Positions 1,383-24,720 of a stretch of 37,729 nt of DNA are shown here, one piece after another. The stretch lies in the NCBI GenBank assembly GCA_947459655.1, contig CANHEE010000016.1, positions 1-37,729 on the forward strand, given 5' to 3'. The notes under the pieces were generated by a model, which was not told the origin of the DNA, ran no database searches, and was given only the letters and a program-made list of their open reading frames with translations. The DNA comes from Lewinellaceae bacterium (GTDB lineage: Bacteria; Bacteroidota; Bacteroidia; Chitinophagales; Saprospiraceae). How positions within the stretch are numbered: position 1 is the stretch's first letter; the number at the start of each line of letters is the position of its first letter. The translations under genes and the position numbers were made by a program.

Positions 1383-1391
1383 TTATCGTGT
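1351..1391. repeat. 9-base tandem repeat CGTGTTTAT overlapping the mgtA stop codon
   Basis: There are four and a half units: CGTGTTTAT three times, then CATGTTTAT, then CGTGT. On the minus strand each unit contains TAA. The mgtA stop codon (1385-1383) lies inside the fourth unit, and the last gene codons (Thr-Arg) are written by the last unit. Confidence 0.85.
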
Positions 1392-3899
1392 TTGGTATTT
1401 CCTGAAGAACCAGACTTTTAGGACATCGGCGGTGAGCACATAAACAAGCACTATAGAAAGCATTGCCAGCAGGTATTCTGGTGGCAACGGAACAAATCCG
1501 ATATCTGCTGCGAAAGGCAGATAGAGCAATCCGATAGTCATGACAACTGCAAATATGCTGAGAAAAATCAGGAATTTGTGGGGCATACTTTTAAAAAAAC
1601 TTTTGTGGGTCCGGATGATGAAAAGTATGAATAACTCAGACAATGCCGACTCAACAAACCAGCTGGTCTGAAATACAGATTCACGTACGTTCAGAACGTA
1701 GAGCAAGGTCAGAAAGGTGACGATGTCAAAAATAGAACTGTGGATACCGAAAATGACCATGTATCTGCTGATGAGCTTCAAATTCCATTTGCCTGAGCGC
1801 TGCAACTGCTCCTCATCCACATTGTCGGAGGCCACCATCAGGTAGGGGAAATCTGAGATGAAATTGGTCAGCAGGATCTGCTTTGGAAGCATCGGTAAGA
1901 ATGGCAGAATAAGCGATGCCGCAGCCACGCTAAACATGTTTCCGAAGGTAGATCCGGTGCTGATGTAAATGTATTTGAGCGTGTTTGCGAAGGTCTTTCT
2001 CCCCTCTCTGATGCCTTCGGCGAGCACCATCAGGTCTTTTTCCAAAAAAACAAAATCGGCCGCTTCTCTTGCAATATCTACTGCATTTTCAACGGAAATC
2101 CCGACATCTGCTGCTTTGATGGCCGACACATCGTTAATACCATCACCGAGATAGGCCACCGTATGGCTTTTTCTGAGTGCCTGTATGATTCGTTCCTTTT
2201 GCTGTGGCTCTACCTCAGCAAAAATATGCGTTTTTCTAACGAGGTGATTGAGCGCTTCCGGGCTGGTTTTGATGAGCTCCTGTCCGGTCATGATGATAGG
2301 GTCGGATATGCCGATTTTCATAGCAATGGATTGTGCTACATTGCGGTTGTCTCCGGTGATGATTTTTAGGTTGACCTGCAGGTGTTTGAGTGCTGCGATG
2401 GTATCCTGAATACCTTGTTTGATCGGGTCTTCAAGTAAAATGAAGCCCGCAAAAGTCATTTCACTTTCTTTCTCTCGCGACACTGTGAGATCACTCAAAT
2501 TTCTGAATGCAACGCCTATGGCCCTTTTTCCTTCCTGACCATATTTTTCAAATTGCATATCAATATTATGAACATTTTCCGCAAGGGAAACGATGTGGCC
2601 ATCGGCAAGACGCATGGTACTACATACAGATATTGTCTCGCGGAATGCGCCTTTGGTAATCAGCAGTACATCCTGATCTTTCCTTACTGCGATGCTTAGT
2701 CTCTTTCGAATAAAATCATATGGAATTTCGGCGATTTTGACGACTTCTTCTTTTGTTGCGGGTGTGATTTTTCGCAAGGCATCGTCGATGGGATTGGCGT
2801 ATCCGGACTCCAGTCGGGCATTCCAGCAGGCCAGATTTTTTACAAAATCGTCCTCTTCCCCTTCACAATTTACGATCCCAAAAACGTTGATGGCACCTTC
2901 TGTGATGGTACCGGTTTTGTCGGTACAGAGCAGATCGACTTCGCCCAGGTTCTGGATGGAGGAAAGTTTCTTTACAATGACTTTTTTCTGTAACATTCGT
3001 TTGGCACCCGCGCTCATGGCGATAGTGGTAATGGCTGGCAACAATTCTGGTGCCATTCCCACGGCCAATGCGAGCGCAAACAGCGCCGAGTCAATTACGC
3101 TTTTGTGGTTGATGAGATTGACCAAGAGAATAAAAATCGACAAAACCATCGTGATTCGCATCAGAAAATAACCGAAGTCCTTGATTCCCTTCTCAAAGGT
3201 GGTTTCAATGTCGTTTGAAGCACTTTGGGCTATGGCACCGAATATGGTGTCTGCACCTGTTCGCACCACCAAAGCTTTTCCATCGCCACTTACGATACTG
3301 GAACCCTCCCAGAGGCAATTCGAGCGGTCTGAAAGCTCGGCACCTTCTGGCTTAACAGAAGGTGCCTTCCTGACCGGATAAGATTCACCCGTCAGACTCG
3401 ATTCGTTGGCGTGCAATTCATTAGATTCCAGCAACAGACAATCAGCGGGAATCATGTCACCGGCATTGAAGAGCACAATGTCTCCGGGCACAATCTGATC
3501 AGCGTTGATATCTTTCGGAACCCCGTCGCGCAAAACGGTGCTTTTCAGAGCAATCAGAGACTGTAGTTTTTCGACTACCCTTCCTGCATTTCGCTCCTGA
3601 AAAAAACTGAGCGTTCCGCTGGTTATAACAATGAAAAGGATGATGAAGACATCGGACAAATCGCCCAGAAATGCCGAAATCACAACCGCACCGATCAGCA
3701 GCAGCATCATCGGACTTTTGAACTGGCTAGCGAACAGTACAAGGTCTCTGCTTAATCGTGTTCCAGACATTCTACCTTTCGGGGAAATGGCCCGCATCTT
3801 AAACGCCTGCTTTTGCGACAGTCCATGCGGAGAACTTTCCAACCTTGTAAACAGCTGTTCGGGTGTGTTTTGCCAAAAGGCTTCACGAATTTCAGGCAT
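1383..3899 (-). CDS. mgtA: Magnesium-translocating P-type ATPase (MgtA/MgtB family)
   Basis: The 838-residue protein is a P3B-type ATPase that imports Mg2+ across the inner membrane. Visible landmarks are the actuator TGES at residues 170-173, the intramembrane MAPELLP at 282-288 (the Mg-ATPase form of the TM4 motif), the phosphorylation site DKTGT with Asp327, and a hinge GDGINDV further on. Further hydrophobic segments fill the C-terminal 200 residues. Escherichia coli MgtA is about 60 residues longer, mainly at the N-terminus. The ATG at 3899 gives a normal cation-ATPase N-domain (EQLFTRLESSPHGLS). No mgtL-like leader was recognised in the 87 bases upstream. The gene is probably monocistronic. 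The C-terminus is encoded partly by a 9-base repeat array. Confidence 0.93.
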   Translation of the reverse strand: MPEIREAFWQNTPEQLFTRLESSPHGLSQKQAFKMRAISPKGRMSGTRLSRDLVLFASQFKSPMMLLLIGAVVISAFLGDLSDVFIILFIVITSGTLSFFQERNAGRVVEKLQSLIALKSTVLRDGVPKDINADQIVPGDIVLFNAGDMIPADCLLLESNELHANESSLTGESYPVRKAPSVKPEGAELSDRSNCLWEGSSIVSGDGKALVVRTGADTIFGAIAQSASNDIETTFEKGIKDFGYFLMRITMVLSIFILLVNLINHKSVIDSALFALALAVGMAPELLPAITTIAMSAGAKRMLQKKVIVKKLSSIQNLGEVDLLCTDKTGTITEGAINVFGIVNCEGEEDDFVKNLACWNARLESGYANPIDDALRKITPATKEEVVKIAEIPYDFIRKRLSIAVRKDQDVLLITKGAFRETISVCSTMRLADGHIVSLAENVHNIDMQFEKYGQEGKRAIGVAFRNLSDLTVSREKESEMTFAGFILLEDPIKQGIQDTIAALKHLQVNLKIITGDNRNVAQSIAMKIGISDPIIMTGQELIKTSPEALNHLVRKTHIFAEVEPQQKERIIQALRKSHTVAYLGDGINDVSAIKAADVGISVENAVDIAREAADFVFLEKDLMVLAEGIREGRKTFANTLKYIYISTGSTFGNMFSVAAASLILPFLPMLPKQILLTNFISDFPYLMVASDNVDEEQLQRSGKWNLKLISRYMVIFGIHSSIFDIVTFLTLLYVLNVRESVFQTSWFVESALSELFILFIIRTHKSFFKSMPHKFLIFLSIFAVVMTIGLLYLPFAADIGFVPLPPEYLLAMLSIVLVYVLTADVLKVWFFRKYQTR

Positions 3900-3986
3900 C
3901 TTTTAAGTGATTGAGACCTTTGCTTTTTCCAAGAAAACAAGTCCCTGTGAAACAAAAAGAGGACTCACATAAGCCCGGTTGATTCG

Positions 3987-4472
3987 TTATTGGAGCTGCA
4001 CCAATTGCCCATCATACAATGCAAAAAGAACAGCATCACCGGCTTCGTTAACTTTTAATCCGGCATATTTCGCCCTGTTGAAATTTGCTGCATTTCCTTT
4101 CTGAAAATAGTAGGTTCCGGCTCCAATGGCGACACTGCCGTTTTTCACTAAGTATTTGATGGCCAATTCATGCTCTTGACGGGGCTGCATAGCTTCCTGG
4201 AAGTGCAAGGAATCTACCCGTCCCCTTTCATCGGTTCTCACCATACAAAAGCCTTTTTGTGGTAGGCTATCAGCTGGCATTGCATCCAATTGTTGATAGT
4301 TCAATTTTATGAAATCGCGCTGTGCGTCAGCGGTGCTATCCACGGGAAATATTTCCAGCAATACCAGTTTACCGGTGTTCAGGACATTTTCTTTTTCAAA
4401 TACTGAGCGGTTGAACAGCCACAACAGAACCGCCAGATTGAGCCATATCAGTAGGTGCCTATACTTTTTCAT
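3987..4472 (-). CDS. GDYXXLXY-family membrane-anchored protein
   Basis: The 161-residue protein has one N-terminal hydrophobic segment (about residues 7-21) that should anchor it, with the rest outside the cytoplasm. The family is named for the motif GDYxxLxY; here it reads RDFIKLNY at residues 52-59, with Gly replaced by Arg and the first Tyr by Phe. The function of the family is unknown. The gene overlaps the end of the DUF4401 gene by 14 bases and is third in the DUF2157-DUF4401-GDYXXLXY operon, an association I know from other bacteria. This suggests one membrane complex (inference). Confidence 0.75.
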   Translation of the reverse strand: MKKYRHLLIWLNLAVLLWLFNRSVFEKENVLNTGKLVLLEIFPVDSTADAQRDFIKLNYQQLDAMPADSLPQKGFCMVRTDERGRVDSLHFQEAMQPRQEHELAIKYLVKNGSVAIGAGTYYFQKGNAANFNRAKYAGLKVNEAGDAVLFALYDGQLVQLQ

Positions 4473-5535
4473 CTGCTTTCCAAAATTTGTTCGTAAAGAT
4501 GTAGAAAAGAATAAACACCAGCCCTACCAGTAACAATAGCCCTGATTTTTGTGGTAAACTAAGGTTAATATCGTAAAAATACCGTGCTACGACCGCTGCA
4601 AGAGAAATTAGCGAAAGTACTGTCCCGGACCGAAAATTAATGAAAAAACAAAGCAATACTGCAAGCATTGAACCGATTATTGCAGGTGCCTTGAAACAGC
4701 AGAAAACGACAATAAGGCTAATTGTGTAAACGGTAATTTTTACATTCATTCTGCTGATATTCAGCACATTTATGACTTTTGAAAATATCATTAATACCAT
4801 CAAACCCAGGAATAGTGCTGCCGGAGAAAGTAAGCTACCGGTCACCGGGATGTTGTCTTTTATTCCCGACCAAATGAGAACGGAGAGGAATGCCATTAAG
4901 ACAGCCAGTCGCAATGGCAGATAAATACGTCTGCAAATTGGCCATGCGCGGAGGATCTGCGCCTCAGCCATACAAGTATACCAGAGCGCAAGGGCAAGCA
5001 AAATCATGTAAATATACATGCCGTCATAGAATTTGTTGCTATGCAACAAATTCAACGCACCAACGTGAATAATCAGGAGTGAAACCAGCGAAAAAACGAA
5101 ATGCTGCACCAGCAAAAGAGCCAAAAAACCAGTCGCCATTAAAGCTGCAGGGATTAGATTCTGATCAATACCATATCTGCCCAACCCGATGCCAAAAAGG
5201 ATGAATCCCAATCCAAAAAAGGTAATGCCGATGGTATCGGTCAGTGGCTTGTTGTATATCCTTTTGATTAAAAGCGAAAGCGCTATCAGCAGCAGTCCGG
5301 TGAGAGTCATGCCAAAATTTGATTTATTCAAACCCGACATGGTAATGAAACTCAGAAAAGTTATTGCTCCCAACAATCCGCCCACAATAGAAAGAAGCCA
5401 AACAGCTACCCCACTGGCCGAATATCGGTCTTCAGAAACGGCAGTTTCCAATGCATTTTCATCAACTTGAAATGCCGTCGGGACTTCCTGTCGTATTGCG
5501 CTCAGTACCTTAACAATGTGCCGATGCTTATCCAT
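4459..5535 (-). CDS. DUF4401 multi-pass membrane protein
   Basis: The 358-residue protein has about ten hydrophobic segments after a soluble N-terminal stretch of some 40 residues, matching DUF4401, which occurs beside DUF2157. I start it at the ATG (MDKHRHIVKV) at 5535, which overlaps the end of the DUF2157 gene by 8 bases. A GTG 24 bases further upstream is possible but less likely. Its own end overlaps the GDYXXLXY gene by 14 bases, so translation of all three is probably coupled. No enzymatic motif is visible. Confidence 0.75.
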   Translation of the reverse strand: MDKHRHIVKVLSAIRQEVPTAFQVDENALETAVSEDRYSASGVAVWLLSIVGGLLGAITFLSFITMSGLNKSNFGMTLTGLLLIALSLLIKRIYNKPLTDTIGITFFGLGFILFGIGLGRYGIDQNLIPAALMATGFLALLLVQHFVFSLVSLLIIHVGALNLLHSNKFYDGMYIYMILLALALWYTCMAEAQILRAWPICRRIYLPLRLAVLMAFLSVLIWSGIKDNIPVTGSLLSPAALFLGLMVLMIFSKVINVLNISRMNVKITVYTISLIVVFCCFKAPAIIGSMLAVLLCFFINFRSGTVLSLISLAAVVARYFYDINLSLPQKSGLLLLVGLVFILFYIFTNKFWKADEKV

Positions 5536-6478
5536 TTTCTTTCCGATTTTGAAGAGCACTCAACATTTTAATCACAGCTGTAACGCTTAGGATGATAAAC
5601 AACCCTGTGACCAGTATCATGGACTGCGATTCAGAAATTTTCAGCATTATTGAAGCGATGATGATGATAACACTGAGGGAAATAAGTGAGAGCAAAAAAC
5701 TGCTCTTTTGCCGCAATCCGTAATCTACCCCAAACGCATAAACAATCAGCGTTCCTATGCACAAAAGTGCGAAGACGATGTCTGGTTCATGATGTATGCC
5801 ATTGGATATTCCCATTGTGGCAAAAATGGCGGTACCAATCGCTACGCACTGCAAAAACCACAGCGGAATCTTGGCTTTTCTCCATTTCAAGAGGAGAATA
5901 TTCAAGAAATAAGCAGCGTTATACAGTCCACTAAGCAGCGCATATACAGCTGACGGCGAACTATTTTTCTGCGCCTGTTCCATGTAAAAAATGATGGTAA
6001 TATGAACCAACATAAGGAAAAGTAACCACAGGTGTGGAAAGCCAGAAACAAATACCCAAATGGAAATGAAGAGCACCCATTGCAGGAAAAACTCATATTC
6101 CAGAGCACTTGTTTGGTACACCTGTCCGTAAACCAGCAACAAAACGCCTACCAAAGCCGGCGCAGCCGTACCGATTATTTTGCGCACAACGATTTTCTGA
6201 CCCGAAATCAGTGTTAAAATCAGACTGAGTACAACGAGTGATTCAACAATACCCAGTTTGAGGAATCTGTGGAGTCCGTTCCAGTTGTACGCGAAAAAGA
6301 AAACGATACCAGCTACTGTGAAGCCTACGCCAAGCGTGATGATAAAAAGCTGTAGAAACAGCTTCCATTGCTGTCTGTCGGGATAAACATGACGTCGGAG
6401 GATAGCAGACAGTGATTCCGTTGTCCAGTTGCTATACGTGTTAATCAGATGAATGTCCTCGCGACTGATTTTTGACAT
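5528..6478 (-). CDS. DUF2157 multi-pass membrane protein
   Basis: The 316-residue protein starts with a soluble segment of about 45 residues (SREDIHLINTYSNW), followed by roughly eight to ten hydrophobic helices. This layout is that of DUF2157 proteins, whose role is not known. It is the first gene of the three-gene overlapping membrane operon. A TAnnTTTG-type box (6528-6535) lies 50 bases upstream and may drive the operon. No catalytic residues can be pointed to. Confidence 0.75.
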   Translation of the reverse strand: MSKISREDIHLINTYSNWTTESLSAILRRHVYPDRQQWKLFLQLFIITLGVGFTVAGIVFFFAYNWNGLHRFLKLGIVESLVVLSLILTLISGQKIVVRKIIGTAAPALVGVLLLVYGQVYQTSALEYEFFLQWVLFISIWVFVSGFPHLWLLFLMLVHITIIFYMEQAQKNSSPSAVYALLSGLYNAAYFLNILLLKWRKAKIPLWFLQCVAIGTAIFATMGISNGIHHEPDIVFALLCIGTLIVYAFGVDYGLRQKSSFLLSLISLSVIIIIASIMLKISESQSMILVTGLFIILSVTAVIKMLSALQNRKENG

Positions 6479-6527: not shown

Positions 6528-6535
6528 CAAATTTA
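6528..6535 (-). promoter_or_regulatory. Possible -7 promoter element for the DUF2157 operon
   Basis: On the minus strand the sequence reads TAAATTTG, a match to TAnnTTTG. No TTG was found at the expected spacing upstream, so only the -7 half is supported. Confidence 0.3.
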
Positions 6536-6692: not shown

Positions 6693-7163
6693 TTATGCGT
6701 TAAGGTACCAGATGGTGCCGTTCAATACGCTTGCGAAGCAAACCCAGAGGAGGTATGGTATCTGAAGGTATGCGGAAACGGGACTGATTTTGTAGAAAAA
6801 GCGAATCATAATGACGATACTGCCCAGCAGTACCAGAATTTCAATTAAGGCTAAACCTATCTGGTGCAGGTTGAAGAAAATTATCGACCAGAGCAGATTG
6901 AGTGCAAACTGAATGGAAAACCACAGGATAGCGTTGTTCTTGTTTTCTTTTCTGCGGTTCCACACCATGCCGAGCGAAATTCCCATCAGCATGTATAGGC
7001 CCGTCCACACTGGTCCGAACACCCAGTTTGGCGGATTCCAGGAAGGTTTTTCAATCATGGGATACCAGCTCAGGACGGCATTTATAGTGCTGAATCCACT
7101 GAACAAACCAAATGTAAGACAGAGGAATACGCAGATGGCAATAGTAAAAACCAGGTTTTTCAT
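6693..7163 (-). CDS. tspO: TspO/MBR (tryptophan-rich sensory) family membrane protein
   Basis: The 156-residue protein has five transmembrane helices and clear family signatures: WYPMIEKPSWNPPNWVFGPVW around residues 33-53, ALNLLWSIIFF near 87, and PYLLWVCFASVLN near 136. TspO proteins bind porphyrins such as protoporphyrin IX, and some degrade them in a light-dependent way; they also affect stress and tetrapyrrole homeostasis. I chose the ATG at 7163 because it follows the SRPBCC stop as TGAaATG and gives a normal length; a TTG start 48 bases upstream would lie inside the neighbour. The position at the end of a photolyase-type gene run fits a photo-oxidative stress role (inference). Confidence 0.9.
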   Translation of the reverse strand: MKNLVFTIAICVFLCLTFGLFSGFSTINAVLSWYPMIEKPSWNPPNWVFGPVWTGLYMLMGISLGMVWNRRKENKNNAILWFSIQFALNLLWSIIFFNLHQIGLALIEILVLLGSIVIMIRFFYKISPVSAYLQIPYLLWVCFASVLNGTIWYLNA

Positions 7164-7164
7164 T

Positions 7165-7620
7165 TCAATTTGATTTGAACATCTGTTCGAGTTTCTGGTA
7201 TCGAAAATCAAAGATAGCTTTTACTTTCCGATGAACAAACAAATGACCTGCAATCCAGCCAAGAAACGACATACCGATATCGTAGTGCAAAATATCTGTC
7301 ATGAGTACTCCCCCATCTACAGCTTTGAAATGGTGCTCATGGTGCCAGATGCTATAAGGCCCTTTGCGCTGTTCGTCCACAAAAAAGGCTCTATCCCTGA
7401 TGTGAGTGATTTCCGTACACCACTGAACAGGAATGTTTAACATGGGTTTCAGGCGGTATCTTATGAACATTCCTTCGTACATTTTTTCCGGTAAATCGGA
7501 CAAAATCTCGAAAACCATGTCATCGGGAGTAATCTCGTTGAGATTGCGCGGTGAGGAAAAGAAATCCCATGCCTCATCTAGAGACATTGGCAAAAATTGC
7601 TCCTGTCGTAGTATCTTCAT
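7165..7620 (-). CDS. SRPBCC (START-like) ligand-binding family protein
   Basis: The 151-residue protein fits the SRPBCC helix-grip fold. Its start MKILRQEQFLPMSLDEAWDF and central GPYSIWHHEHHF match the subfamily often found alone or as the N-terminal part of SulA/YfcH-like proteins. The ligand is unknown; a hydrophobic small molecule is the usual guess. The ATG at 7620 gives the usual family N-terminus; a GTG 30 bases upstream would add a lysine-rich extension. The stop sits one base before the TspO start, so the two are probably translated together. Members of this subfamily recur near photolyase genes (recalled). Confidence 0.75.
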   Translation of the reverse strand: MKILRQEQFLPMSLDEAWDFFSSPRNLNEITPDDMVFEILSDLPEKMYEGMFIRYRLKPMLNIPVQWCTEITHIRDRAFFVDEQRKGPYSIWHHEHHFKAVDGGVLMTDILHYDIGMSFLGWIAGHLFVHRKVKAIFDFRYQKLEQMFKSN

Positions 7621-7674
7621 TTTCTTTTTTTTAGGACAGCAATCTGCCACCTTGCTTTATTATTATTCAATTCA

Positions 7675-8385
7675 TCAAACCCTGAGCGAACCCAATCCGC
7701 CATCGACACCGATGACCTGACCTGTAATCCAAGCCGAGTTGTCGCCAACCAAAAAGGCAGCCATTTGGGCCATTTCCTCAGGTGTTCCCACTCGCTGCAG
7801 GGGGTGTCTTTTTGCAGCAGCATCTTTCTTCTCGGGTGTACTCAGCAGATTTGCGGCCAGTGGCGTCTCCGTCAGCGATGGCGCAATTACGTTGACCCTG
7901 ATGGCTGAAATTGCCAGCTCGGCAGCGAGGCTCTTCGCCAGTCCCTCAACAGCACCTTTTGAAGCGGCAATCGAAGCATGAAAAGGCATTCCAAGCTTGA
8001 CTGCGACTGTGCTAAAAAGCACTACACTGGCCCCATTAGCCCTTTTCATCGCAGGAAGCAATTTTTGGATTAACCTTACAGCACCCATTACATTCTGTTG
8101 AAAATCAGAAAGAAAATCCTGCTCAGAGAGTCTGTTGAAAGGTTTCAAAACAATGGAGCCGGGGCAGTAAATCAACCCGTGAATTTGATCCGGTAGCCCA
8201 TCCAGCACACCCAGGTCATCTTTACTGACATCTATGCCATAAAAAGATGTCCCAAGGGCACGGAGATCATCAGTTTCATTTCTGGAGATGGCGAAGACAT
8301 TGTTGCCCTCTGAAAGCAGTTCAGCAGTCTTTAGTCCGATGCCTTTACCGGCTCCCACGATGACAATATTCTTTGGATTACTCAT
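7675..8385 (-). CDS. Short-chain dehydrogenase/reductase family protein without the catalytic tyrosine
   Basis: The 236-residue protein has the Rossmann glycine motif GAGKGIG (residues 11-17) and the SDR C-terminal half, with TGQVIGVDGG near the end. The catalytic Ser is present (Ser125 in LFSTVAV) and so is Lys143, but the residue four before Lys is Ile139: the motif is IAASK instead of YAASK. The NNAG motif is also altered (IYCPGS). Classical oxidoreductase activity is therefore doubtful (inference). I start it at the ATG 17 codons into the longest frame, at 8385, which gives the standard N-terminus MSNPKNIVIVGAG. It sits between SRPBCC and DUF2256 in the photolyase-type run. Confidence 0.85.
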   Translation of the reverse strand: MSNPKNIVIVGAGKGIGLKTAELLSEGNNVFAISRNETDDLRALGTSFYGIDVSKDDLGVLDGLPDQIHGLIYCPGSIVLKPFNRLSEQDFLSDFQQNVMGAVRLIQKLLPAMKRANGASVVLFSTVAVKLGMPFHASIAASKGAVEGLAKSLAAELAISAIRVNVIAPSLTETPLAANLLSTPEKKDAAAKRHPLQRVGTPEEMAQMAAFLVGDNSAWITGQVIGVDGGLGSLRV

Positions 8386-8440
8386 GATTCGGTTGTATTT
8401 TGCCGTCAGGCAGATGTTAGATGAATTGTGATGCATTTAA

Positions 8441-8623
8441 TCAACCCTGAGTAGATTGTATATCTCCTACTGCATTGCTTGGTAGGTTTCTCATGTTTCG
8501 ACAACGTTGACTGCAGTATTTGAGCTCATCCCATACTTTTTCCCACTTTTTCCGCCAAGTGTATGGTCTGTTACAAACCGTGCAGATTTTCTTTGGCAGA
8601 TCTGCTTTTTTGGTATTTTTCAT
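8441..8623 (-). CDS. DUF2256 small cysteine-rich protein
   Basis: This 60-residue protein carries the DUF2256 signature: KICTVCNRPYTWRKKWEKVW, then KYCSQRCR. Four cysteines (14, 17, 37, 41) form a CxxC...CxxxC pattern that probably binds zinc. DUF2256 genes are typically next to cryptochrome/photolyase genes, and the function is unknown. The start is the ATG at 8623, which gives the normal short length; the open frame extends upstream but without family similarity. It follows the TIGR03643-like gene by 31 bases. Confidence 0.85.
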   Translation of the reverse strand: MKNTKKADLPKKICTVCNRPYTWRKKWEKVWDELKYCSQRCRNMRNLPSNAVGDIQSTQG

Positions 8624-8654
8624 CAGATAAATTGATTCTTCAAGGCAAAAAATG

Positions 8655-8972
8655 CTATCTTTTGCTGATTTTATTGTGGGTGATGGTCCGTTGCAGTTTG
8701 CAACGAAAACGGTTAATTCCCTCCTCGCGCTTGTGCAGGTGCTTCTGACTGACACCACTGTGCACCCGCTTGCGCCAAAGGTTAAAACTCGAACGTTTTA
8801 GATTGCGGCGCATGAGGGCAACTACCTCAGCCTCGCTCAGTCCGAACTGAAATTCAATTGCCTCAAAAGGCGTCCGGTCTTCCCATGCCATTTCGATGAC
8901 ACGGTCAACCGGAAAATTTTGCTGCTCCTGTTGTGCCAGGGTATCATTGTTGGTTATTACCTGTTGTTCCAT
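8655..8972 (-). CDS. TIGR03643-like small basic protein
   Basis: The 105-residue protein contains VDRVIEMAWEDRTPFEAI (22-39), then LSEAEVVALMRRNLKRSSF and WRKRV, the signature of TIGR03643. Its helical, basic middle part, with a helix-turn-helix-like LSEAEV segment, suggests nucleic-acid contact, but this is unproven. The family is found with photolyase/cryptochrome genes and DUF2256 (recalled). The ATG at 8972 was chosen over a TTG 78 bases further upstream. The C-terminal basic tail (about residues 77-105) is variable. Confidence 0.8.
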   Translation of the reverse strand: MEQQVITNNDTLAQQEQQNFPVDRVIEMAWEDRTPFEAIEFQFGLSEAEVVALMRRNLKRSSFNLWRKRVHSGVSQKHLHKREEGINRFRCKLQRTITHNKISKR

Positions 8973-9080
8973 ATCGGGAAAACTTAAATCAATCAGTGGA
9001 ACAACTGAATGCTGCCGTTGTTCAAGCGGAGCAGTTTTTGTGTGGCGCAAAAAAGATATGAAAATTGAAAAGGTCAGGAT

Positions 9081-9851
9081 TCAGATTTCCCAGATATCAC
9101 CCCACAGTCGCTGACCGCCATCAACGTATAGTGTGTCACCGGTAACGTATGCGGCCATCGGTGAGGCCAGGAAGAGGGTCGGCCATGCAATTTCATCGAC
9201 TGTACCCAGTCTCTTCATCGGGATTTTATCAGAGATACCATGCAGCAGCTCAGGCGGGTAATTTTCCAGTCCTGAGGACTGTATAATACCTGGAGCAACA
9301 CAGTTGACACGCACGCCGCGATTGCACCACTCGATAGCTAGGGTTTTGCTCATGGTCTCTATGCCACCGCGTGCTGCTGCTGTGTGCGCCATGCCGGGCA
9401 CTCCACGATATATATTCACGATGATGTTGACAATCACGCCCTGCTTTTGTGCCTCAAAGAACGATTTGAAAACCATTTGACACATATTCCACGTTCCATT
9501 GAGGTTGTTGTTGATCACTGCATTCCATCCGTTAGGACTGATGTCTTCAGCCGCCGAGGGAAACTGTCCGCCACTGTTGTTGATCAGGATATCAAGTCGG
9601 CCGCATTTGTCCTTAATTTTCTCCAATAGCACCTCAATAGCATCACGGTCGCGGATATCGACAGTGGTTCCATACACTTCGCCAAAAGTACTGAGTTGTG
9701 ATGTTGCCGCAGAGATTCGCTCCTCTTTCCGGGAGGCAATCCACACTATTGCTCCGCATTGCAGCATTTGTTTTGCAATGGCAAAACCTATTCCGCTACC
9801 TCCACCTGTAACGAGTACAATTTTGCCTTTGAAAAGATCTTTTGAGAACAT
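9081..9851 (-). CDS. SDR family protein, peroxisomal trans-2-enoyl-CoA reductase/AtuG-like
   Basis: The 256-residue protein has TGGGSGIG (15-22) and NNSGGQFPSAAEDISPNGW (91-109), the latter characteristic of the PECR/AtuG branch of SDRs acting on acyl-CoA or terpenoid substrates. The usual Ser-Tyr-Lys set is not in place: the Ser position reads NIIVNIYRG, and the YxxxK site reads HTAAARGG (156-163). This departure is shared by relatives, so it is likely a subfamily trait and not decay. The substrate is unknown. It is transcribed ahead of TIGR03643, with a 108-base gap. Confidence 0.85.
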   Translation of the reverse strand: MFSKDLFKGKIVLVTGGGSGIGFAIAKQMLQCGAIVWIASRKEERISAATSQLSTFGEVYGTTVDIRDRDAIEVLLEKIKDKCGRLDILINNSGGQFPSAAEDISPNGWNAVINNNLNGTWNMCQMVFKSFFEAQKQGVIVNIIVNIYRGVPGMAHTAAARGGIETMSKTLAIEWCNRGVRVNCVAPGIIQSSGLENYPPELLHGISDKIPMKRLGTVDEIAWPTLFLASPMAAYVTGDTLYVDGGQRLWGDIWEI

Positions 9852-9860
9852 TCAGAAGTG

Positions 9861-9884
9861 TTTAGATGATTAGGTGATTAAGTG
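9861..9884. repeat. Three tandem copies of an 8-base unit NTTAGGTG overlapping the Nramp-like stop codon
   Basis: Units are TTTAGATG, ATTAGGTG and ATTAAGTG. The Nramp-like stop codon TAA (9880-9878 on the minus strand) is read from the boundary of the last two units. The same unit family occurs at 147-170. Confidence 0.75.
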
Positions 9885-11149
9885 AATTGGAGATAAATAA
9901 GTGTTATGGCTGCAGCTGACATGATGATCATGGTTGCAAAACCGAGAATATTTGACTTTATTCCGTTGGTAAACCCGCCCATGACCGTTTTGTTGTTGCA
10001 GATGTGCATAATAATGGCAATCAAAACAGGGGCCGTTATTCCGTAGAGAATTGCAGCATAGAGCAGTCCCTGTATTGGAGTAATACCCACATAATTGAGC
10101 GACAATCCCAGTAATAGCGAAATGGCGATGATGATGTAAAATGGCTTGGCTTCATGGAACTGATTGTCGAGTCCTTCTTTCCACCCGAAGGTCTCGCAAA
10201 AAATATACGATAGTGAACCACTCAATACAGGAATAGCCAGTAGTCCTGTCCCGATGACACCGATTGCAAAAAGGAGGTATGCGAAATCGCCTGCCACGGG
10301 GCGGAGTGCTTTTGCTGCCTGCTCCACGGTATCAATCTGATGAACACCGCTGTTGAAAAGTACTGTTCCTGTGGTGAGGATGATGAACCAGGCCACTACA
10401 CCTGAGAAGCCCATTCCAAAGTCTACATCCTTTTGCATTTCATGTATGATTTTCTTGTTCACCATGATGTGCTTTTTCCGGTGTCGCATCTCCTCCACCT
10501 CCATCGTGGCCTGCCAGAAAAACAGATAGGGCGAAATGGTAGTACCCAAAATGGCCACTAGCATGCTCAAAAACTCCTTGTCGAACCTAATGACGGGAAC
10601 GAATGTGGCTTTCAGCACCGCAGCCCAGTCCTGCTTAAACAGAAAAGGCACAACGAAGTACACCAATAGCACGACACAGAGGTATTTAAGTATGGCTGCA
10701 ATTTTCTGATAGGGGTAATAGATGATGATGATCAGCAGTAAAATTGTGAAGAAAACGCTGAAATACGATGCATCAATGGACGGAAACAGCAGATTTCCCA
10801 CAGCACCCATGCCCGCGATATCGGCACCAATGTTCAGCACAATGGCGGGACAACTGAACAGCACCATCAGATACAAGACCGGTCTGGAGTAATACTGCTT
10901 GAGTGTACCTGTTAGCCCGAGAGAGGTGACCAGTCCAATCCGCGCACACATCTCCTGGATTGCTGCCATCAATGGAAAAGAGATAAGAATTGTCCACAGG
11001 GTGCTGAGGCCCAACAACGCTCCCGCCTGGGAATATGTGGCTATGCCTGAAGGATCATCGTCACTTGAACCGGTGACCAACCCCGGGCCCAGTTTTTTCC
11101 AGAATTTTTTAATCAGACTACCACGTGCGATACTTCCTTTACCTGACAT
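9878..11149 (-). CDS. Nramp-like divalent metal cation transporter
   Basis: The 423-residue protein has about eleven hydrophobic helices and an Nramp-type N-terminus, KKLGPGLVTGSSDDDPSG. The TM1 metal-binding motif, normally DPGN, reads DPSG (32-35), and the TM6 motif, normally MPH, reads SPY (206-208). The Met that favours transition metals is therefore absent. This resembles the non-canonical bacterial Nramp-related clades, some of which carry Mg2+ or have unknown substrates. It should import a divalent cation across the inner membrane with protons or without (family knowledge). The start is the ATG at 11149, 25 bases after a TACATTTG box. Confidence 0.85.
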   Translation of the reverse strand: MSGKGSIARGSLIKKFWKKLGPGLVTGSSDDDPSGIATYSQAGALLGLSTLWTILISFPLMAAIQEMCARIGLVTSLGLTGTLKQYYSRPVLYLMVLFSCPAIVLNIGADIAGMGAVGNLLFPSIDASYFSVFFTILLLIIIIYYPYQKIAAILKYLCVVLLVYFVVPFLFKQDWAAVLKATFVPVIRFDKEFLSMLVAILGTTISPYLFFWQATMEVEEMRHRKKHIMVNKKIIHEMQKDVDFGMGFSGVVAWFIILTTGTVLFNSGVHQIDTVEQAAKALRPVAGDFAYLLFAIGVIGTGLLAIPVLSGSLSYIFCETFGWKEGLDNQFHEAKPFYIIIAISLLLGLSLNYVGITPIQGLLYAAILYGITAPVLIAIIMHICNNKTVMGGFTNGIKSNILGFATMIIMSAAAITLIYLQFT

Positions 11150-17733: not shown

Positions 17734-19023
17734 TTAGCTCAGCCAAAGGTTTCTGAATCTACGGTCGGAATCGTAATCCGCAGCTTGTTTTTCGATATTG
17801 AAAATCCTTTTTCCCCTTGGATCGTTTCCCACTCCGGCCACATAGGCCCAGTTTCCCCAATTGCTGCACACATCGTAATCGATGAGCTGCTGTTCAAAAT
17901 ATGCTGCACCATAACGCCAGTCGAGCTGCAGATCGTTGCACAGGTAGCTGGCTACGTTTTGCCTGCCTCTGTTGCTCATAAAACCCGTTCGTTTCAGTTC
18001 CTGCATATTGGCATCTACAAAGTCATTACCTGTTTTGCCATTTTTCCATTGTTCAAACCTGGCGGCATTATGCTTGCCCGTTTGTTGTGTTGTGTTTTTT
18101 AATCCGTTCAGGAGAAAAAGCCGGTTGCCGTATTTGCGCATCATCCACCTGAAATAATCGCGCCACAATAGTTCGAAAAAAAGCCAATAGGTTGATTCGT
18201 TTGACCCCCTTTCAGCCTCATACGTTTTCAGTTGGGCGACAATTTCTCGCGCTGAAAGGCATCCCAAACTCAACCAGGCTGAAAATTTAGAAGAATAGTC
18301 ACTTCCGCACATCCCGTTGCGGGTTAGTTTGTAAGTAGAAACGGCACCGGTCCCAAAGAGGTAGTAATGTAGTCTTTCAAGACCTGCATTTTCACCTCCC
18401 TGAAATTTGATAGCGGCCCTGTCGTCAATGGTATCGTGCGCCAGTCCAAGTTCATTCAATTTCGGCAGTTTTATGGGACCGATTTCCGGAGAACTTATGA
18501 TTTCAGGTGCAATACGCGACTGCCTCACTGCCGACTCACTTTCGACCCGCTTTCTGAAAACTGTGAACACATCGGGCAATTGAGCAGGAGAAAAGGGCAG
18601 TTCGTGTTCTTCGTAGAGGGTGGCGGTATTGCAAGTGGTGAACTTGCAGTCAATGTCTTGCAGTGCCGCTTCCACCAGCTGCTGCGTTCTGAGTTCTTCA
18701 ATGGCAACTTCTTCCATCGCATACACCTGTTGTGCAGTAAATTCACGGGCAAGCATGCTTAGCTGTTCCGAAGGTTTCCCCTCGACCACGATCAAACCGG
18801 AACCCCTTTCTCTGAGGTTTCTGTCGAGGCACAACAGCGATTCCAGTAAAAACTGCGCTCTGAATACTCCAGTCTTCTGCAATCCAAGTTTTGTTGTCTT
18901 AAAATGATCATCATCAAAGCAGTACACAGGAACAATCCGGTCATTTTCCTGCATTGCCCGTAGCAGCGTCTCGTTATCGTGCAAGCGCAAATCATTTTTG
19001 AACCATACCAGCGCTGTTTTCAT
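17734..19023 (-). CDS. Cryptochrome DASH (photolyase/cryptochrome family)
   Basis: The 429-residue protein begins with the photolyase alpha/beta domain (ALVWFKNDLRLHDNETL, residues 4-20) that holds the antenna cofactor. It ends with the FAD-binding helical domain, with WGNWAYVAGVGNDPR (about 389-403) and FNIEKQAADYD, the CRY-DASH signature. CRY-DASH proteins repair cyclobutane dimers in single-stranded DNA and may be blue-light sensors. The start codon ATG follows the TAA of the preceding photolyase-family gene with no base between them (TAAATG), so the two are co-translated. Length is typical for bacterial members. Confidence 0.92.
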   Translation of the reverse strand: MKTALVWFKNDLRLHDNETLLRAMQENDRIVPVYCFDDDHFKTTKLGLQKTGVFRAQFLLESLLCLDRNLRERGSGLIVVEGKPSEQLSMLAREFTAQQVYAMEEVAIEELRTQQLVEAALQDIDCKFTTCNTATLYEEHELPFSPAQLPDVFTVFRKRVESESAVRQSRIAPEIISSPEIGPIKLPKLNELGLAHDTIDDRAAIKFQGGENAGLERLHYYLFGTGAVSTYKLTRNGMCGSDYSSKFSAWLSLGCLSAREIVAQLKTYEAERGSNESTYWLFFELLWRDYFRWMMRKYGNRLFLLNGLKNTTQQTGKHNAARFEQWKNGKTGNDFVDANMQELKRTGFMSNRGRQNVASYLCNDLQLDWRYGAAYFEQQLIDYDVCSNWGNWAYVAGVGNDPRGKRIFNIEKQAADYDSDRRFRNLWLS

Positions 19024-20589
19024 TTACAAATCGTTAATATTCTTCAGGTAATAATCGGCTTGCTCCAGCAACGCCGTCTTTTGGTCCGACTGCATCTTCT
19101 TCCAAAGATTGTATGCCATACCGATTCGCGGGTTTTTCGATAGCTTATCTTCATGTCGGTTGTAAAAATTCCAATACATGCTATTGAATGGACAGGCCCT
19201 TTCTCCGGTTTTTTTCGATTTGTCATAGTAACAACCTTGGCAATACGAACTCATTTTGCTGATATAGGCTGCAGAACTGACATAGGGCTTCGTTCCCACG
19301 ATACCTCCATCGGCAAACTGGCTCATCCCACGCGTGTTGGTGATTTCAACCCATTCTATTGCATCAATGTAAATACCCAGGTACCACCGATCGACTTCAT
19401 CAGGATCCACTCCTGCCAGCAGGGCGAAATTCCCGGTAATCATCAGGCGTTGAATGTGGTGTGCATAGGAAAATTGCAAGGATTGCTTTACTGCATTTTT
19501 GAGGCAGTTCATCCGAGTGTTACCATCCCAGAACCAACGGGGCAATTTTTCGCTGTGTGCGAAATAGTTCATCTCTGCATAATCAGGCATTTTCATCCAG
19601 TAGATACCACGCATGTACTCGCGCCAACCGATGATTTGCCTTACAAAACCCTCGAGCTGGTGGTATGCAATCTCGTCCGGCCGCTTTTGGTATTCCAATA
19701 TGGCACGATCGACCACCTCTTTCGGAGAGAGCATTTTGGTATTTAGCGAAAAAGAAATTCTAGAGTGATAAAGACTCCATTCTCCCGGTGCCATGGCATC
19801 CTGAAAGGTACCGAAAAGCGGGAGACAGTTGTCCATAAAAAATTCCAGCAACTTCAGCGATTGTGCACGATTGACTGGCCAAATAAAGTTACGGCTATCT
19901 ACCGCTCCAAGTGTTTTCACACCGGCTTTGTGAATTTCAGCCTCCAGATGAGTCAAATCGTTGTCAAAAAGCAGCGGAGGTGGAGGATGGTGACCTTTGG
20001 GAAGGCTTCGTCGGTTATCTTCATCAAAATTCCATTTTCCGTGCAACGGTTGATCACCGTTTTCTATCAGTACGCCGTGTTTTTTTCGCATATAGCGGTA
20101 AAAACTCTCCATTAGGTAAGTTTTTTTTCCGCTAAAAAACGACTGCAATTCGTTCCGTGTACTGTAAAAATGCTCAGTGTCGAGCGCTTCGTGCGGGATT
20201 TCAAGGCTTTCTGCAAATTGACGGAGGTGCTCATCAATCCTGAATTCATCTGGCTTCTGGTATTCAAATCTGCTGAAGTTGCCTGTTGAAATCAAACCTG
20301 CGCAGTTTCCCGCAAAGCTTTGCAGATTAGAAGCATCATTGAGCCGTATGTAGTGTACATTATGCCCCATTTGCTGCAGTTCAGCAGCAAAATGTCGCAT
20401 AGCAGCAAAAAAACCGATTACTTTCTGAATGTGGTGCTGCACATAATCTGTCTCGCTCCTCAGTTCCATCAGCACGTAGACAACTGATGTATCCACCGTT
20501 TTAAACCAGCTGTGGGCGGCGTTGAGCTGGTCACCCAGAACCAGTCTCAGCGTTTTTTTATTGTCGTTGGCCATGTTTGGTTCAGTCAT
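19024..20589 (-). CDS. FeS-type bacterial cryptochrome/(6-4) photolyase (PhrB-like)
   Basis: The 521-residue protein matches the FeS-BCP family: RLVLGDQLN (15-23) at the antenna domain, then HHIQRLMITGNFALLAGVDP (377-396), and the FAD region with WYLGIYIDAIEWV. Four cysteines, 362, 450, 453 and 466, show the spacing 88-3-13 seen in Agrobacterium PhrB, whose equivalents bind a 4Fe-4S cluster. PhrB repairs (6-4) photoproducts and uses a lumazine antenna with FAD. It is directly followed by CRY-DASH (TAAATG). The first ATG at 20589 is used; a second ATG six codons in would also work. Confidence 0.93.
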   Translation of the reverse strand: MTEPNMANDNKKTLRLVLGDQLNAAHSWFKTVDTSVVYVLMELRSETDYVQHHIQKVIGFFAAMRHFAAELQQMGHNVHYIRLNDASNLQSFAGNCAGLISTGNFSRFEYQKPDEFRIDEHLRQFAESLEIPHEALDTEHFYSTRNELQSFFSGKKTYLMESFYRYMRKKHGVLIENGDQPLHGKWNFDEDNRRSLPKGHHPPPPLLFDNDLTHLEAEIHKAGVKTLGAVDSRNFIWPVNRAQSLKLLEFFMDNCLPLFGTFQDAMAPGEWSLYHSRISFSLNTKMLSPKEVVDRAILEYQKRPDEIAYHQLEGFVRQIIGWREYMRGIYWMKMPDYAEMNYFAHSEKLPRWFWDGNTRMNCLKNAVKQSLQFSYAHHIQRLMITGNFALLAGVDPDEVDRWYLGIYIDAIEWVEITNTRGMSQFADGGIVGTKPYVSSAAYISKMSSYCQGCYYDKSKKTGERACPFNSMYWNFYNRHEDKLSKNPRIGMAYNLWKKMQSDQKTALLEQADYYLKNINDL

Positions 20590-20696: not shown

Positions 20697-21338
20697 TCAA
20701 GCAATTTCATCGGGCCATTTATCTGGTTTGGCGTAGCTCAATCTTGCGAGCTGGCGGGTAGAATGATATGCATCCAGACCGGATATGGTGATAGTCGACG
20801 CTTTTTCAATATCGATGGCACCGTGCGGTAGAATACAATCTCCCGGCAGGATAACCTCAACCACTTTTCCAATGACCAGTATCGTTCCGTTGATGCTCAA
20901 ATCATGCCTTTCGGCAAATGAAAGTCCGAACCTGATGCGGCTTTCTTTGACGTAAGGTGCAGGAATGAGTGTTGAAAATTCGGTGGTCAGTCCTGCTGCA
21001 TCAAATTCCGAGGTTTCACGCGGGTACCGGGCAGATGTCTGATGTGCCTGTTTAAAGATGGCTTCATTGATGTGATTTATGGTGAAATATCCTGTCGCAA
21101 GAATATTTTCCAAGGTGTGGCGACTGCTGGAGTCGGGCCTGTTGATAAAGCCTATGAGTGCCGGATTGGAGCCAATGTGTACCACCGAACTAAAAATCGC
21201 CAGATTGGTATTGCCCTGACCGTCAACCGTTCCAATCAGCGAAGCGCTTTTAAAGCCACTTAATGCATTGATAAATGCTGCCCTTTTGCGGGTGTCCATT
21301 GCGGCTATGTCTTCCTCAAGATAATGATTGAACTCCAT
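20697..21338 (-). CDS. Flavin reductase-like (FMN-binding split barrel) protein
   Basis: The 213-residue protein fits the flavin reductase/flavoredoxin family: SASLIGTVDGQGNTNLAIFSS (32-52) with the FMN phosphate-contact pattern, and HTLENILATGYFTIN (74-88). It probably binds FMN and reduces or carries flavin with NAD(P)H. The partner is unknown. It is located between the moaCB end (65 bases upstream) and the photolyase gene start (107 bases downstream), all on one strand. A role in keeping flavin reduced for the photolyases is attractive but only inferred. Confidence 0.85.
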   Translation of the reverse strand: MEFNHYLEEDIAAMDTRKRAAFINALSGFKSASLIGTVDGQGNTNLAIFSSVVHIGSNPALIGFINRPDSSSRHTLENILATGYFTINHINEAIFKQAHQTSARYPRETSEFDAAGLTTEFSTLIPAPYVKESRIRFGLSFAERHDLSINGTILVIGKVVEVILPGDCILPHGAIDIEKASTITISGLDAYHSTRQLARLSYAKPDKWPDEIA

Positions 21339-21403
21339 TTCAAAGATTTTTAATGCAGTTCAAACACCAAATTACCACAAATGTTTGCGGCTAAAATCAA
21401 CTG

Positions 21404-22315
21404 TCAATCGTGCGAAAAAGACTGCATTACACGAAAGACATGCAGTATATGTGGGAATACTGCATCCATGCTTTCTTCGGCACCCTTCGTAGAACCGGGA
21501 AGCGCAAGCACCAGCGAGTCACCCATCAGTCCTGCAACAGAACGGGAGAGCATACTATATGGCGTTCGGCACTGTCCATAGCTACGGATGGCCTCCTCAA
21601 TGCCCGGGATATTTCTGTCCAGCAAAGAGCGAAGTGCTTCAGGAGTCACGTCACGGGGCGAAAGACCCGTACCTCCCGTGAATATGATAAGATTGGTTTT
21701 CATATCGGCGTGATGCATCGCCTTGGCGCGAATCTGCTCAGCCTCGTCGGGAATGATGCAGTACTCATCAACCGGGATTTCCAGTTTCTCCAGCTTGGCG
21801 ATGATGGCTTTTCCTGCAAAATCTGTTTTTTGACCAGCCGATATGGAATCGGAGCAAACAATCACGGCGGCACGCAGACTTTTTCGCAATTCAGCTGAAT
21901 AATCACTCTTGCCCCCTTTTTTTTCCAACAGTCTGATCGAGCAGATTTCAATCTCCTTATCGAGCGGCTTCAGCATATCGTAAACCGTCAGTGCAGCAAC
22001 AGAAGCACCATGCATGGCTTCAACCTCCACGCCGGTTTTGTAAATGGTCTTGATTTCTACTTCGATGTGTATTTCCTGTGCCGCTACGTGAAAATGCACC
22101 GCCGCAAACTCTATGGGAAGAGGGTGGCAGTCGGGAATCACATCGCTGGTTTTTTTGACTGCCAGCAGCGCTGCGGCTTTTGCCATCTCAAATACATCTC
22201 CTTTTGGAACGGTTTTACCGAGCACAGCTGCGATGGTCGCAGGACTACCCACCCGCACGATTGCCGAGGCTTTTGCGTAACGCAATGTATTGATTTTGTG
22301 CGTAATATCTACCAT
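21404..22315 (-). CDS. moaCB: Bifunctional molybdenum cofactor protein, MoaC-MoaB/MogA fusion
   Basis: The 303-residue protein joins two enzymes. Residues 1-137 are MoaC (cyclic pyranopterin monophosphate synthase), with CHPLPI (His64), TGVEVEAMHGASVAALTVYDM (94-114) and KKGGKS (132-137). Residues 145-303 are MoaB/MogA (molybdopterin adenylyltransferase fold), with VCSDSISAG and TGGTGLSPRDVTPEA (213-227). The fusion couples an early and a late step of the pathway and is common in Bacteroidota. It is the last gene of the cofactor operon, 12 bases after moaE. The MoaC N-terminus is short but begins at the usual MVDI. Confidence 0.93.
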   Translation of the reverse strand: MVDITHKINTLRYAKASAIVRVGSPATIAAVLGKTVPKGDVFEMAKAAALLAVKKTSDVIPDCHPLPIEFAAVHFHVAAQEIHIEVEIKTIYKTGVEVEAMHGASVAALTVYDMLKPLDKEIEICSIRLLEKKGGKSDYSAELRKSLRAAVIVCSDSISAGQKTDFAGKAIIAKLEKLEIPVDEYCIIPDEAEQIRAKAMHHADMKTNLIIFTGGTGLSPRDVTPEALRSLLDRNIPGIEEAIRSYGQCRTPYSMLSRSVAGLMGDSLVLALPGSTKGAEESMDAVFPHILHVFRVMQSFSHD

Positions 22316-22327
22316 TTTTTACATTGT

Positions 22328-22780
22328 TTAACGGTTTTCTTTCCACGTGTGATTCTGATCATCATAGCATTCCTTACCCCAGATGGGCAGCTTGCTTTTG
22401 ATGAGCTCTACCATTTCCATGCAGGCCATGGTGGCATCTCTCCTATGCTCTGATGAAACGAAGACAAACAGATTTATTTCGCCCGCATTTATCTTACCAA
22501 GACTATGGTAAACATGCATGCAGGTAAGAGCGTATTTTGCAAAAATCTGTTCGCGTATCTCCAAGTAAACATCGTACACCATTTCGGGATAGGCAGAAAA
22601 TTCGATGGCTCTGACCTCCCTGCTGTTCTTGATGTCATTTCTTATTTGTCCTAGAAAAATCTGATGTGCTCCTATGTTTGTCTTTGTGCTGTGTTTTGCA
22701 ATTGCTCCGGCAATGAATTCCGGCGAAACCGGACCCTCAACGAAAATGGAGGCAGGTTTCTTTTTTTCTTTATTGTTCAT
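22328..22780 (-). CDS. moaE: Molybdopterin synthase large subunit MoaE
   Basis: The 150-residue subunit converts precursor Z to molybdopterin with sulfur from MoaD. Family motifs are GAHQIFLGQIR (37-47), SSEHRRDA (109-116) and KSKLPIWGKE (128-137), with the catalytic lysines. I start it at the ATG overlapping the previous gene's stop as ATGA (22780), which gives MNNKEKKK; the frame is open a further 22 codons but that would cut into the neighbour. Length equals E. coli MoaE. Confidence 0.93.
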   Translation of the reverse strand: MNNKEKKKPASIFVEGPVSPEFIAGAIAKHSTKTNIGAHQIFLGQIRNDIKNSREVRAIEFSAYPEMVYDVYLEIREQIFAKYALTCMHVYHSLGKINAGEINLFVFVSSEHRRDATMACMEMVELIKSKLPIWGKECYDDQNHTWKENR

Positions 22781-23898: not shown

Positions 23899-23903
23899 GA
23901 ATA

Positions 23904-24140
23904 TCAACCTCCTGCAAATGGTGGCAGCAATGCAAGTTCATCTCCCTGGGCAATGGACTGGTTGGCATTGATGACCTTCTTGTTGTGTGCAATAACGTAA
24001 GGATACATGTTCAGAGCCGGATAAGCTACGACAAGTTGCCTCCTTAAGGCATCGGTATCTTTCGCCTCCTCTACTTCTATGAACGGCTGACCGATGGCAT
24101 CTGCAAGTATTCCAAACAATAAAACCTTATTTTTTATCAT
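23904..24140 (-). CDS. moaD: Molybdopterin synthase sulfur carrier subunit MoaD
   Basis: The 78-residue ubiquitin-like protein ends in the required Gly-Gly (LLPPFAGG). The terminal glycine becomes a thiocarboxylate that supplies sulfur to MoaE. The start ATG at 24140 overlaps the end of mobA by 14 bases, and the end lies five bases before the moeZ-like start, so all three are translationally coupled. Confidence 0.93.
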   Translation of the reverse strand: MIKNKVLLFGILADAIGQPFIEVEEAKDTDALRRQLVVAYPALNMYPYVIAHNKKVINANQSIAQGDELALLPPFAGG

Positions 24141-24708: not shown

Positions 24709-24720
24709 TTCGATATGGTT

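Follow-up and report, generated by a model that had tools for sequence, protein, structure and literature searches.

Three overlapping genes on the minus strand of a 37,729 nt stretch of DNA from a Lewinellaceae bacterium (phylum Bacteroidota; contig CANHEE010000016.1 of assembly GCA_947459655.1; the whole stretch is hereafter referred to as the window) encode proteins of the families DUF2157, DUF4401 and GDYXXLXY, which are known to the databases but uncharacterised. The organization of these genes in the window and in its relatives makes it very probable that the three proteins form one complex. In addition, the balance of the evidence leans slightly towards the two membrane proteins, DUF2157 and DUF4401, being diverged copies of one subunit that would form a pseudo-heterodimer. 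The best explanation of the operon as a whole, that is, one inner-membrane complex with diverged copies of a membrane subunit, a shared periplasmic site and a role in the cell envelope, has about an even chance of being correct.

The three-gene operon in the window and in its relatives

The DUF2157 gene (positions 5528–6478 of the window; all features described below are also on the minus strand, unless given as regions) encodes a protein of 316 amino acids (aa) with 10 transmembrane (TM) helices predicted by AlphaFold2. The DUF4401 gene (4459–5535) encodes a protein of 358 aa, counted from an ATG, with about 10–12 predicted TM helices, and an alternative GTG start at position 5559 is likewise open for this open reading frame (ORF). 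The GDYXXLXY gene (3987–4472) encodes a protein of 161 aa that consists of one TM anchor followed by a beta-rich domain. The family identities that had been proposed in the initial annotation were corroborated, because all three proteins passed the curated cut-offs of their Pfam families, PF09925 for DUF2157 (58.3 bits vs. a cut-off of 32.4; E-value 9.1e-16), PF14351 for DUF4401 (96.7 bits vs. 30.4; 2.2e-27) and PF14345 for GDYXXLXY (71.2 bits vs. 27; 1e-19). NCBIfam gave no name for any of the three, and no functional study of the three families was found in the open-access papers searched. The ORF coordinates also agree with the proposed gene overlaps of 8 nt between DUF2157 and DUF4401 (5528–5535) and of 14 nt between DUF4401 and GDYXXLXY (4459–4472). 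The three genes are adjacent and overlapping, in the order DUF2157-DUF4401-GDYXXLXY, and a profile search of the genome yielded a single match for each family. The GDYXXLXY protein has a single anchor, as claimed, with one TM helix in its AlphaFold2 model. The other two are multi-pass proteins, but the soluble N-termini ascribed to them comprise only about 34–45 residues and are not domains.

Relatives were collected by a genome scan with an alignment of four GDYXXLXY sequences, and the best 80 of 416 were kept, resulting in 81 loci including the window. Nearly all relatives are titled Bacteroidota; the exceptions by title are metagenome-assembled genomes of Ignavibacteria (L035), Thalassobius (L082) and Algicola (L089), and the sample is biased in that 21 of the 80 are titled Chryseobacterium. 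In 76 of the 81 loci, exactly one match per family was found, in identical order and on the same strand, including two loci in which DUF2157 is a fragment of 107 aa (L053) or a piece of 216 aa (L067). Among the remaining five loci, three have one gene split across two frames (L042, L045 and L061) and two have GDYXXLXY alone (L038 and L079). In the genomes of the latter two, DUF2157 and DUF4401 are adjacent to each other on another contig and no second GDYXXLXY was seen, so that all three families are present in both genomes. A DUF4401 remnant with an internal stop was observed just upstream of the lone GDYXXLXY of L038 (L038 6001–6486; G395:C41:44980-45096).

The overlaps are conserved as well, with lengths that rest on start codons chosen by a script. 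The DUF4401 and GDYXXLXY genes overlap in 75 of the 76 loci, and in 62 loci the overlap is 14 nt. The DUF2157 and DUF4401 genes overlap in 74 of the 76 loci, and the most common lengths are 11 nt (38 loci), 8 nt (15) and 13 nt (10). The recurring order, together with the near-identical overlaps, indicates that the operon arrangement goes beyond chance. Close pairs of relatives, which include no close relative of the window, show purifying selection on all three genes, with median ratios of nonsynonymous to synonymous substitution rates of 0.10 for DUF2157 (24 pairs), 0.15 for DUF4401 (18 pairs) and 0.10 for GDYXXLXY (31 pairs). The pairwise distances of the subunits are correlated (0.80, 0.80 and 0.93), values that are confounded by shared ancestry.

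A two-gene version and natural fusions

A survey of 395 genomes of the phylum revealed GDYXXLXY above the cut-off in 23 genomes and DUF4401 in eight, all of which are among the 23 and also contain DUF2157. Each of the 23 GDYXXLXY genes lies downstream of the gene for a DUF2157 protein, either directly or with DUF4401 in between (in one case, L138, the upstream DUF2157 is a 134 aa fragment near the start of the contig). For 15 of the 23, the configuration is a two-gene version that consists of a DUF2157 protein of about 410–450 aa and GDYXXLXY, without DUF4401. DUF2157 was found above the cut-off in 15 of 118 genomes, nine of which also contain GDYXXLXY. Thus, the families do co-occur elsewhere (8/8 DUF4401 genomes, 23/23 GDYXXLXY genes with DUF2157), whereas rare co-occurrence had been named as an observation that would speak against a joint system. 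The strict coupling that had been postulated holds for DUF4401 and for GDYXXLXY with DUF2157, but not for DUF2157 itself.

Seven DUF2157 regions distant from GDYXXLXY were inspected. Two of these (L143 and L144) contain DUF2157 proteins of the two-gene type, and profile searches of the stretch and of the genome yielded no GDYXXLXY match for either. The proteins of the other five (L145–L149) were not matched by the family profiles and belong to another subfamily. Furthermore, eight DUF4401 matches below the cut-off were observed in long frames; in seven genomes (including L014–L017) the frame has a length of about 1470 aa, and in the eighth case of 1094 aa. These are either a distant relative or chance matches.

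Each of the two gene junctions was found to be fused somewhere. DUF2157 and DUF4401 are joined in a 644 aa frame of a genome placed in the window's own family (G178), in a 735 aa protein on Pantoea replicons and in a 611 aa frame in Fusobacterium, that is, in three lineages, and DUF4401 and GDYXXLXY form a single open frame in one (G030). Such fusions at each junction are a classical sign of physical partnership. In Aeromonas, the three are separate genes. In Acinetobacter (L153 6141–7935), apparently the same DUF2157-DUF4401 fusion is present in two overlapping frames; it is missing from the gene table of the record, which is incomplete by design. Altogether, the three domains occur together in Bacteroidota, Gammaproteobacteria (Pantoea, Aeromonas and Acinetobacter) and Fusobacteriota. 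Spread by phages was considered, and no viral relative was found in one scan, which reached close relatives only. Spread by plasmids was likewise discarded; among the matches in plasmid collections, large Pantoea replicons predominate (47 of 51 records and 47 of 59). Two records filed as plasmids (L154 and L155) are chromosome-sized (4.9 and 2.1 Mb) and have almost no listed annotation. The conclusion drawn earlier from conserved gene order and coupling, namely one complex, is well supported by the co-occurrence, the overlaps and the natural fusions, with the qualification that DUF4401 is absent in 15 of the 23 cases.

A probable duplication of the membrane subunit, with divided motifs

The relationship between the two-gene and the three-gene version was analyzed by profile comparison with hhalign, in which the two-gene protein was represented by an alignment of 11 sequences (A5). 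This protein matched DUF4401 over nearly the full length (score 68.5, E-value 2e-8) and the DUF2157 of the three-gene version over roughly the first 60% (score 80.7, E-value 3e-10). Controls between families, for which reversed profiles and three unrelated membrane families (3–5 sequences each) were also used, did not exceed 27.9. Comparisons of profiles with their own reverse reached 44.5, and scores in that range would have been disregarded.

The conserved sites of the two-gene protein are divided between the two membrane proteins of the three-gene version. The columns G56, A62, N64, W65, K73, Q122 and Y164 are kept at frequencies of 0.97–1.00 in DUF2157, and at 0.00 in DUF4401 with the exceptions of A62 (0.42) and Y164 (0.02). 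In the C-terminal part, G408 is kept at 1.00 in DUF4401, G378 at 0.78 and K420 at 0.71, and the aromatic pair at columns 390–391 is aromatic in DUF4401 too (Y for F); the alignment with DUF2157 stops before this part. The motifs follow the same division. FxxNW is present in 59 of 60 DUF2157 rows (the sole miss is a fragment of 216 aa) and in none of 65 DUF4401 rows, and GQxYQTGA is also present in 59 of the 60 (the exception is the window) and in none of the 65. A loosened form of YYYDLxxTLxxKS is found in 61 of the 65 DUF4401 rows (the window is among the four misses) and in none of the 60 DUF2157 rows, all of which match PF09925. Taken together, the bridge via the two-gene protein and the divided motifs are most simply read as the duplication of one subunit, after which the conserved sites were split between the copies. 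Jointly, the copies would then perform the task of the single protein of the two-gene version.

Predicted topology and structure

The AlphaFold2 model of DUF2157 (mean predicted local distance difference test score, pLDDT, 83.7) has ten long helices; two short ones at the N-terminus, before TM1, were modelled at low confidence (pLDDT blocks of 57–69). The loop charges fit a ten-helix protein with both termini inside. In this topology both DUF2157 motifs would be on the periplasmic side, FAYNW (residues 62–66; positions 6281–6295) at the predicted periplasmic end of TM1 and GQVYQTSA, the counterpart of the family motif GQxYQTGA (residues 118–125; 6104–6127), in the predicted periplasmic loop after TM3. 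For DUF4401, the hydropathy of the family alignment has 12 peaks, two of which are 14 residues apart. The sequence FYDINLSLPQKS (residues 320–331; 4543–4578), which corresponds to the family motif YYYDLxxTLxxKS, is situated in the loop before the last TM helix, and this loop would be periplasmic if the C-terminus of DUF4401 is inside.

The model of the GDYXXLXY protein (mean pLDDT 86.1) consists of the TM anchor helix (residues 5–33; 4374–4460) and the beta-rich domain. Its least certain part is the motif stretch (residues 41–70; ten-residue blocks of 63, 78 and 73), perhaps because a partner is needed. No known match to this fold was found among solved structures, either by a sequence search or by structural comparison (best Foldseek E-value 0.099; best Z 2.3). 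The idea that PRxxxxGDY might resemble a signal peptidase box was abandoned, since the 20 Pfam families listed for 66 rows (E-value up to 10) include none of this kind.

Flanking genes and regulatory candidates

The operon is flanked by a TspO gene upstream (same strand, gap of 214 nt) and by a gene for an MgtA-type P-ATPase downstream (1383–3899, same strand, gap of 87 nt). The most common flanking gene family is present in only 10 of the 81 loci, and the three genes therefore appear to be a complete unit; in this comparison 64 of the 80 relatives are represented by at least 12 kb, and the other 16 lack parts of their flanks. A link to magnesium transport was rejected, because the P-ATPase remained without relatives when the ORFs of the 81 loci were clustered (BLAST, E-value 1e-8, half coverage) and a weak terminator-like hairpin intervenes. 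This hairpin with a T-rich tail (3961–3976) is located just past the last gene, and four such sites are present between positions 3850 and 6750 vs. 2.5 expected (standard deviation 1.9). Upstream of the operon, TAAATTTG (6528–6535) is a weak candidate promoter element of the form TAnnTTTG, the Bacteroidota promoter consensus, with 32 matches in the window vs. 28.7 expected.

TspO and the light- and molybdenum-related genes upstream were also considered as members of the operon and discarded, as no flanking family exceeds the 10 of 81 loci. The regions 6693–11149 and 17734–20589 contain TspO, a weak match of the polyketide cyclase type, short-chain dehydrogenases, DUF2256, DUF2805, an Nramp transporter, a photolyase and a photolyase-related protein, a group that looks light- or pigment-related. 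The region 20697–26745 contains a flavin reductase gene and molybdenum cofactor genes (MoaC joined to a MoCF domain, ThiF-rhodanese, MobA-like and MoeA), which are adjoined by a gene for a TauE/SafE-type exporter. At 34147–37200, a 1017 aa protein with cohesin and dockerin matches is encoded, and its match to the Por secretion tail is exactly at the cut-off.

Proposed complex and possible functions

From these results we infer that the operon would encode a single inner-membrane complex. DUF2157 and DUF4401 would derive from an ancestral protein of about ten helices, which survives undivided in the two-gene version, and would pair as a pseudo-symmetric heterodimer in the three-gene version. 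GDYXXLXY would be anchored alongside by its one helix, with the beta-rich domain on the periplasmic side. The motifs FxxNW, GQxYQTGA, YYYDLxxTLxxKS, PxDPRxxxQGDYM and FxxEG, all predicted at or near the periplasmic surface of the membrane, may then contribute to one shared working site, and coupled translation across the gene overlaps would lead to joint synthesis of the subunits. Most likely, the complex would have a part in building or guarding the cell envelope, and its periplasmic domain would act as a gate or sensor at the membrane surface; this envelope role is put forward tentatively. Two published observations fit an envelope or stress role, and neither is a test of it. In one study, a GDYXXLXY protein belongs to a set of 16 that were recovered with tagged FtsX as well as with tagged EnvC in Fusobacterium nucleatum after cross-linking (PMC5915739). 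In another, a GDYXXLXY gene is raised by log2 1.93 in a Fusobacterium co-culture, together with ClpB, DnaK and DnaJ (PMC9848294).

Several observations weigh against this explanation. DUF2157 and DUF4401 show no direct profile similarity (score 12.4), so that their kinship depends on the two-gene bridge, an alignment of only 11 sequences, and the three unrelated control families contained only 3–5 sequences each. Conserved columns of the two-gene protein are kept at frequencies of at least 0.8 in just two of 45 aligned columns in DUF4401 and in 11 of 34 in DUF2157, and invariant residues are replaced on both sides (L119 and S150 on that of DUF2157, R389 and F404 on that of DUF4401). DUF2157 proteins without partners occur. 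The fusions, counted as the lineages in which they were found, may share an origin. The FtsX/EnvC list stems from cross-linked samples, includes several proteins of unknown function and names no membrane partner (PMC5915739). Lastly, no constant neighbour, regulator or phenotype gives a clue to the function.

A transporter or flippase is a rather unlikely alternative. DUF2157/DUF4401 would move a lipid-linked or small hydrophobic substrate, which GDYXXLXY would receive or hand over on the periplasmic side. An architecture of two related subunits with many helices each, or of a single one that presumably dimerises, is common among transporters, and the conserved motifs, polar and charged and located at the membrane surface, would fit such a function. 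PF04018, a family of undecaprenyl phosphate translocase-like proteins, is matched by two of the 65 DUF4401 rows (best E-value 0.0035) and MgtE by two of the 60 DUF2157 rows (0.027), but these matches are weak and concern a minority of the rows. No transporter family reached an E-value better than 0.003 among the matches listed (the best 25 for DUF2157, the best 25 for DUF4401 and all 17 for the two-gene protein), neither an ATPase nor a substrate-related gene is a constant neighbour in the 81 loci, and when the DUF2157 fold was compared with known structures, transporters ranked only after the top matches.

It is improbable that the complex is a sensor or signalling complex for envelope stress, with a role like those of LiaF or the phage-shock membrane sensors. 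Support comes from the single-anchor periplasmic domain of GDYXXLXY, from the upregulation of its gene with chaperones in the Fusobacterium co-culture (PMC9848294) and from the assignment of DUF2157 to the N-terminal helices of LiaF in PMC11237479, a putative link to the LiaF/LiaI-LiaF-TM domain of phage-shock-type systems. However, the C-terminal LiaF/Toastrack domain of LiaF is absent from the DUF2157 protein, for which PF09925 was the only match with an E-value up to 0.1. Moreover, the 30 proteins of the window that were scanned with Pfam include no Lia or Psp partner (among them PspA and PspC), kinase, response regulator, sigma factor or anti-sigma factor. In addition, the 81 loci lack a constant neighbour, and Pfam recognised no cytoplasmic output domain.

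Divergence of the window's own copy

The GDYxxLxY-type motif that had been described for the window, RDFIKLNY, retains the D, L and Y, but the literal GDYxxLxY is absent. It is part of PVDSTADAQRDFIKLNY (residues 43–59; 4296–4346), the degenerate counterpart of the family sequence PVDPRSLMQGDYMxLxY. In an alignment of 66 rows, the other 65 have GDY (64) or GDF (1). The window is the only row in which R47, S48, G52, M55 and E125 are replaced; P46, L49 and Y54 are replaced in it and in one other row each, whereas the core residues P43, D45, Q51, D53, L57 and Y59 are retained. The protein is assigned to PF14345 because of the whole profile and not because of the motif. DPR and QGDYM are kept in all of eight further homologues from three-domain systems, which include Aeromonas, Pantoea, Acinetobacter and Fusobacterium and of which four belong to other phyla; a ninth, G300, is locus L101 and was left out of this count because it is one of the 66 rows.

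Since motifs of all three subunits deviate from their families, the operon of the window might be decaying or might have changed its job, which we consider quite unlikely. RDFIKLNY, GQVYQTSA and FYDINLSLPQKS break motifs that are kept in nearly all other rows, and in the 95%-conserved columns the window is the worst row for each subunit, with deviations in 17 of 44 columns for GDYXXLXY (next worst row 5), in 4 of 17 for DUF4401 (next 3) and in 5 of 33 for DUF2157 (next 4). However, the comparison set had been chosen for similarity to another sequence, and outside homologues deviate to a similar or greater extent, in 8–18, 2–7 and 5–14, respectively, of roughly this set of columns. The three frames and both overlaps are intact, and the core residues of GDYXXLXY are kept. 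Among the deviations of the window, only the motif loss itself appears to be special.

Weak likeness to EccD and implications

The seven best structural matches of the DUF2157 model are chains of ESX-3 and ESX-5 complexes (Z 13.0–10.3, root-mean-square deviation 6.3–7.6, 255–268 residues), and the next-best match has a Z of 8.7. Judged by chain length and fold, the seven chains are presumably EccD. EccD3 is described in PMC6986878 as a homodimer of 11-helix subunits around a large hydrophobic cavity. By analogy, DUF2157 and DUF4401 could surround a lipid-filled space within the inner membrane that GDYXXLXY caps from the periplasm, and the complex could be an independent relative of the membrane core of type VII secretion that lacks the motor ATPase and serves envelope construction in several diderm phyla. 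This possibility is very doubtful. Unrelated helical models can reach Z values like that of the best match (Z 13.0, root-mean-square deviation 6.5, 268 aligned residues; Foldseek E-value 0.012), sequence searches gave no match between EccD and DUF2157, and the DUF2157 model, with its ten helices, has two short low-confidence helices in place of the ubiquitin-like N-terminal domain of EccD. Furthermore, no EccC-type ATPase or other Ecc gene was found among the 30 scanned proteins. The resemblance is weak and is retained as a lead; if it is real, the unusual membrane subunit of type VII secretion would gain a relative outside secretion.

That the three proteins form no complex and share only their regulation, being needed under the same condition, would be favoured by the two-gene version without DUF4401 but is highly improbable in view of the fusions at both junctions, the near-constant overlap lengths and the 8/8 co-occurrence.

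With the probable complex, three uncharacterised families become one testable system with a proposed architecture, a duplicated membrane subunit with shared-out motifs and a periplasmic partner. What is new here is the relationship between the two-gene and the three-gene version, together with the division of the motifs, by which a set of DUFs becomes a machine amenable to testing. Because the three domains are widely spread, establishing what they do in one species would provide an annotation for many genes that are at present named only as DUFs.

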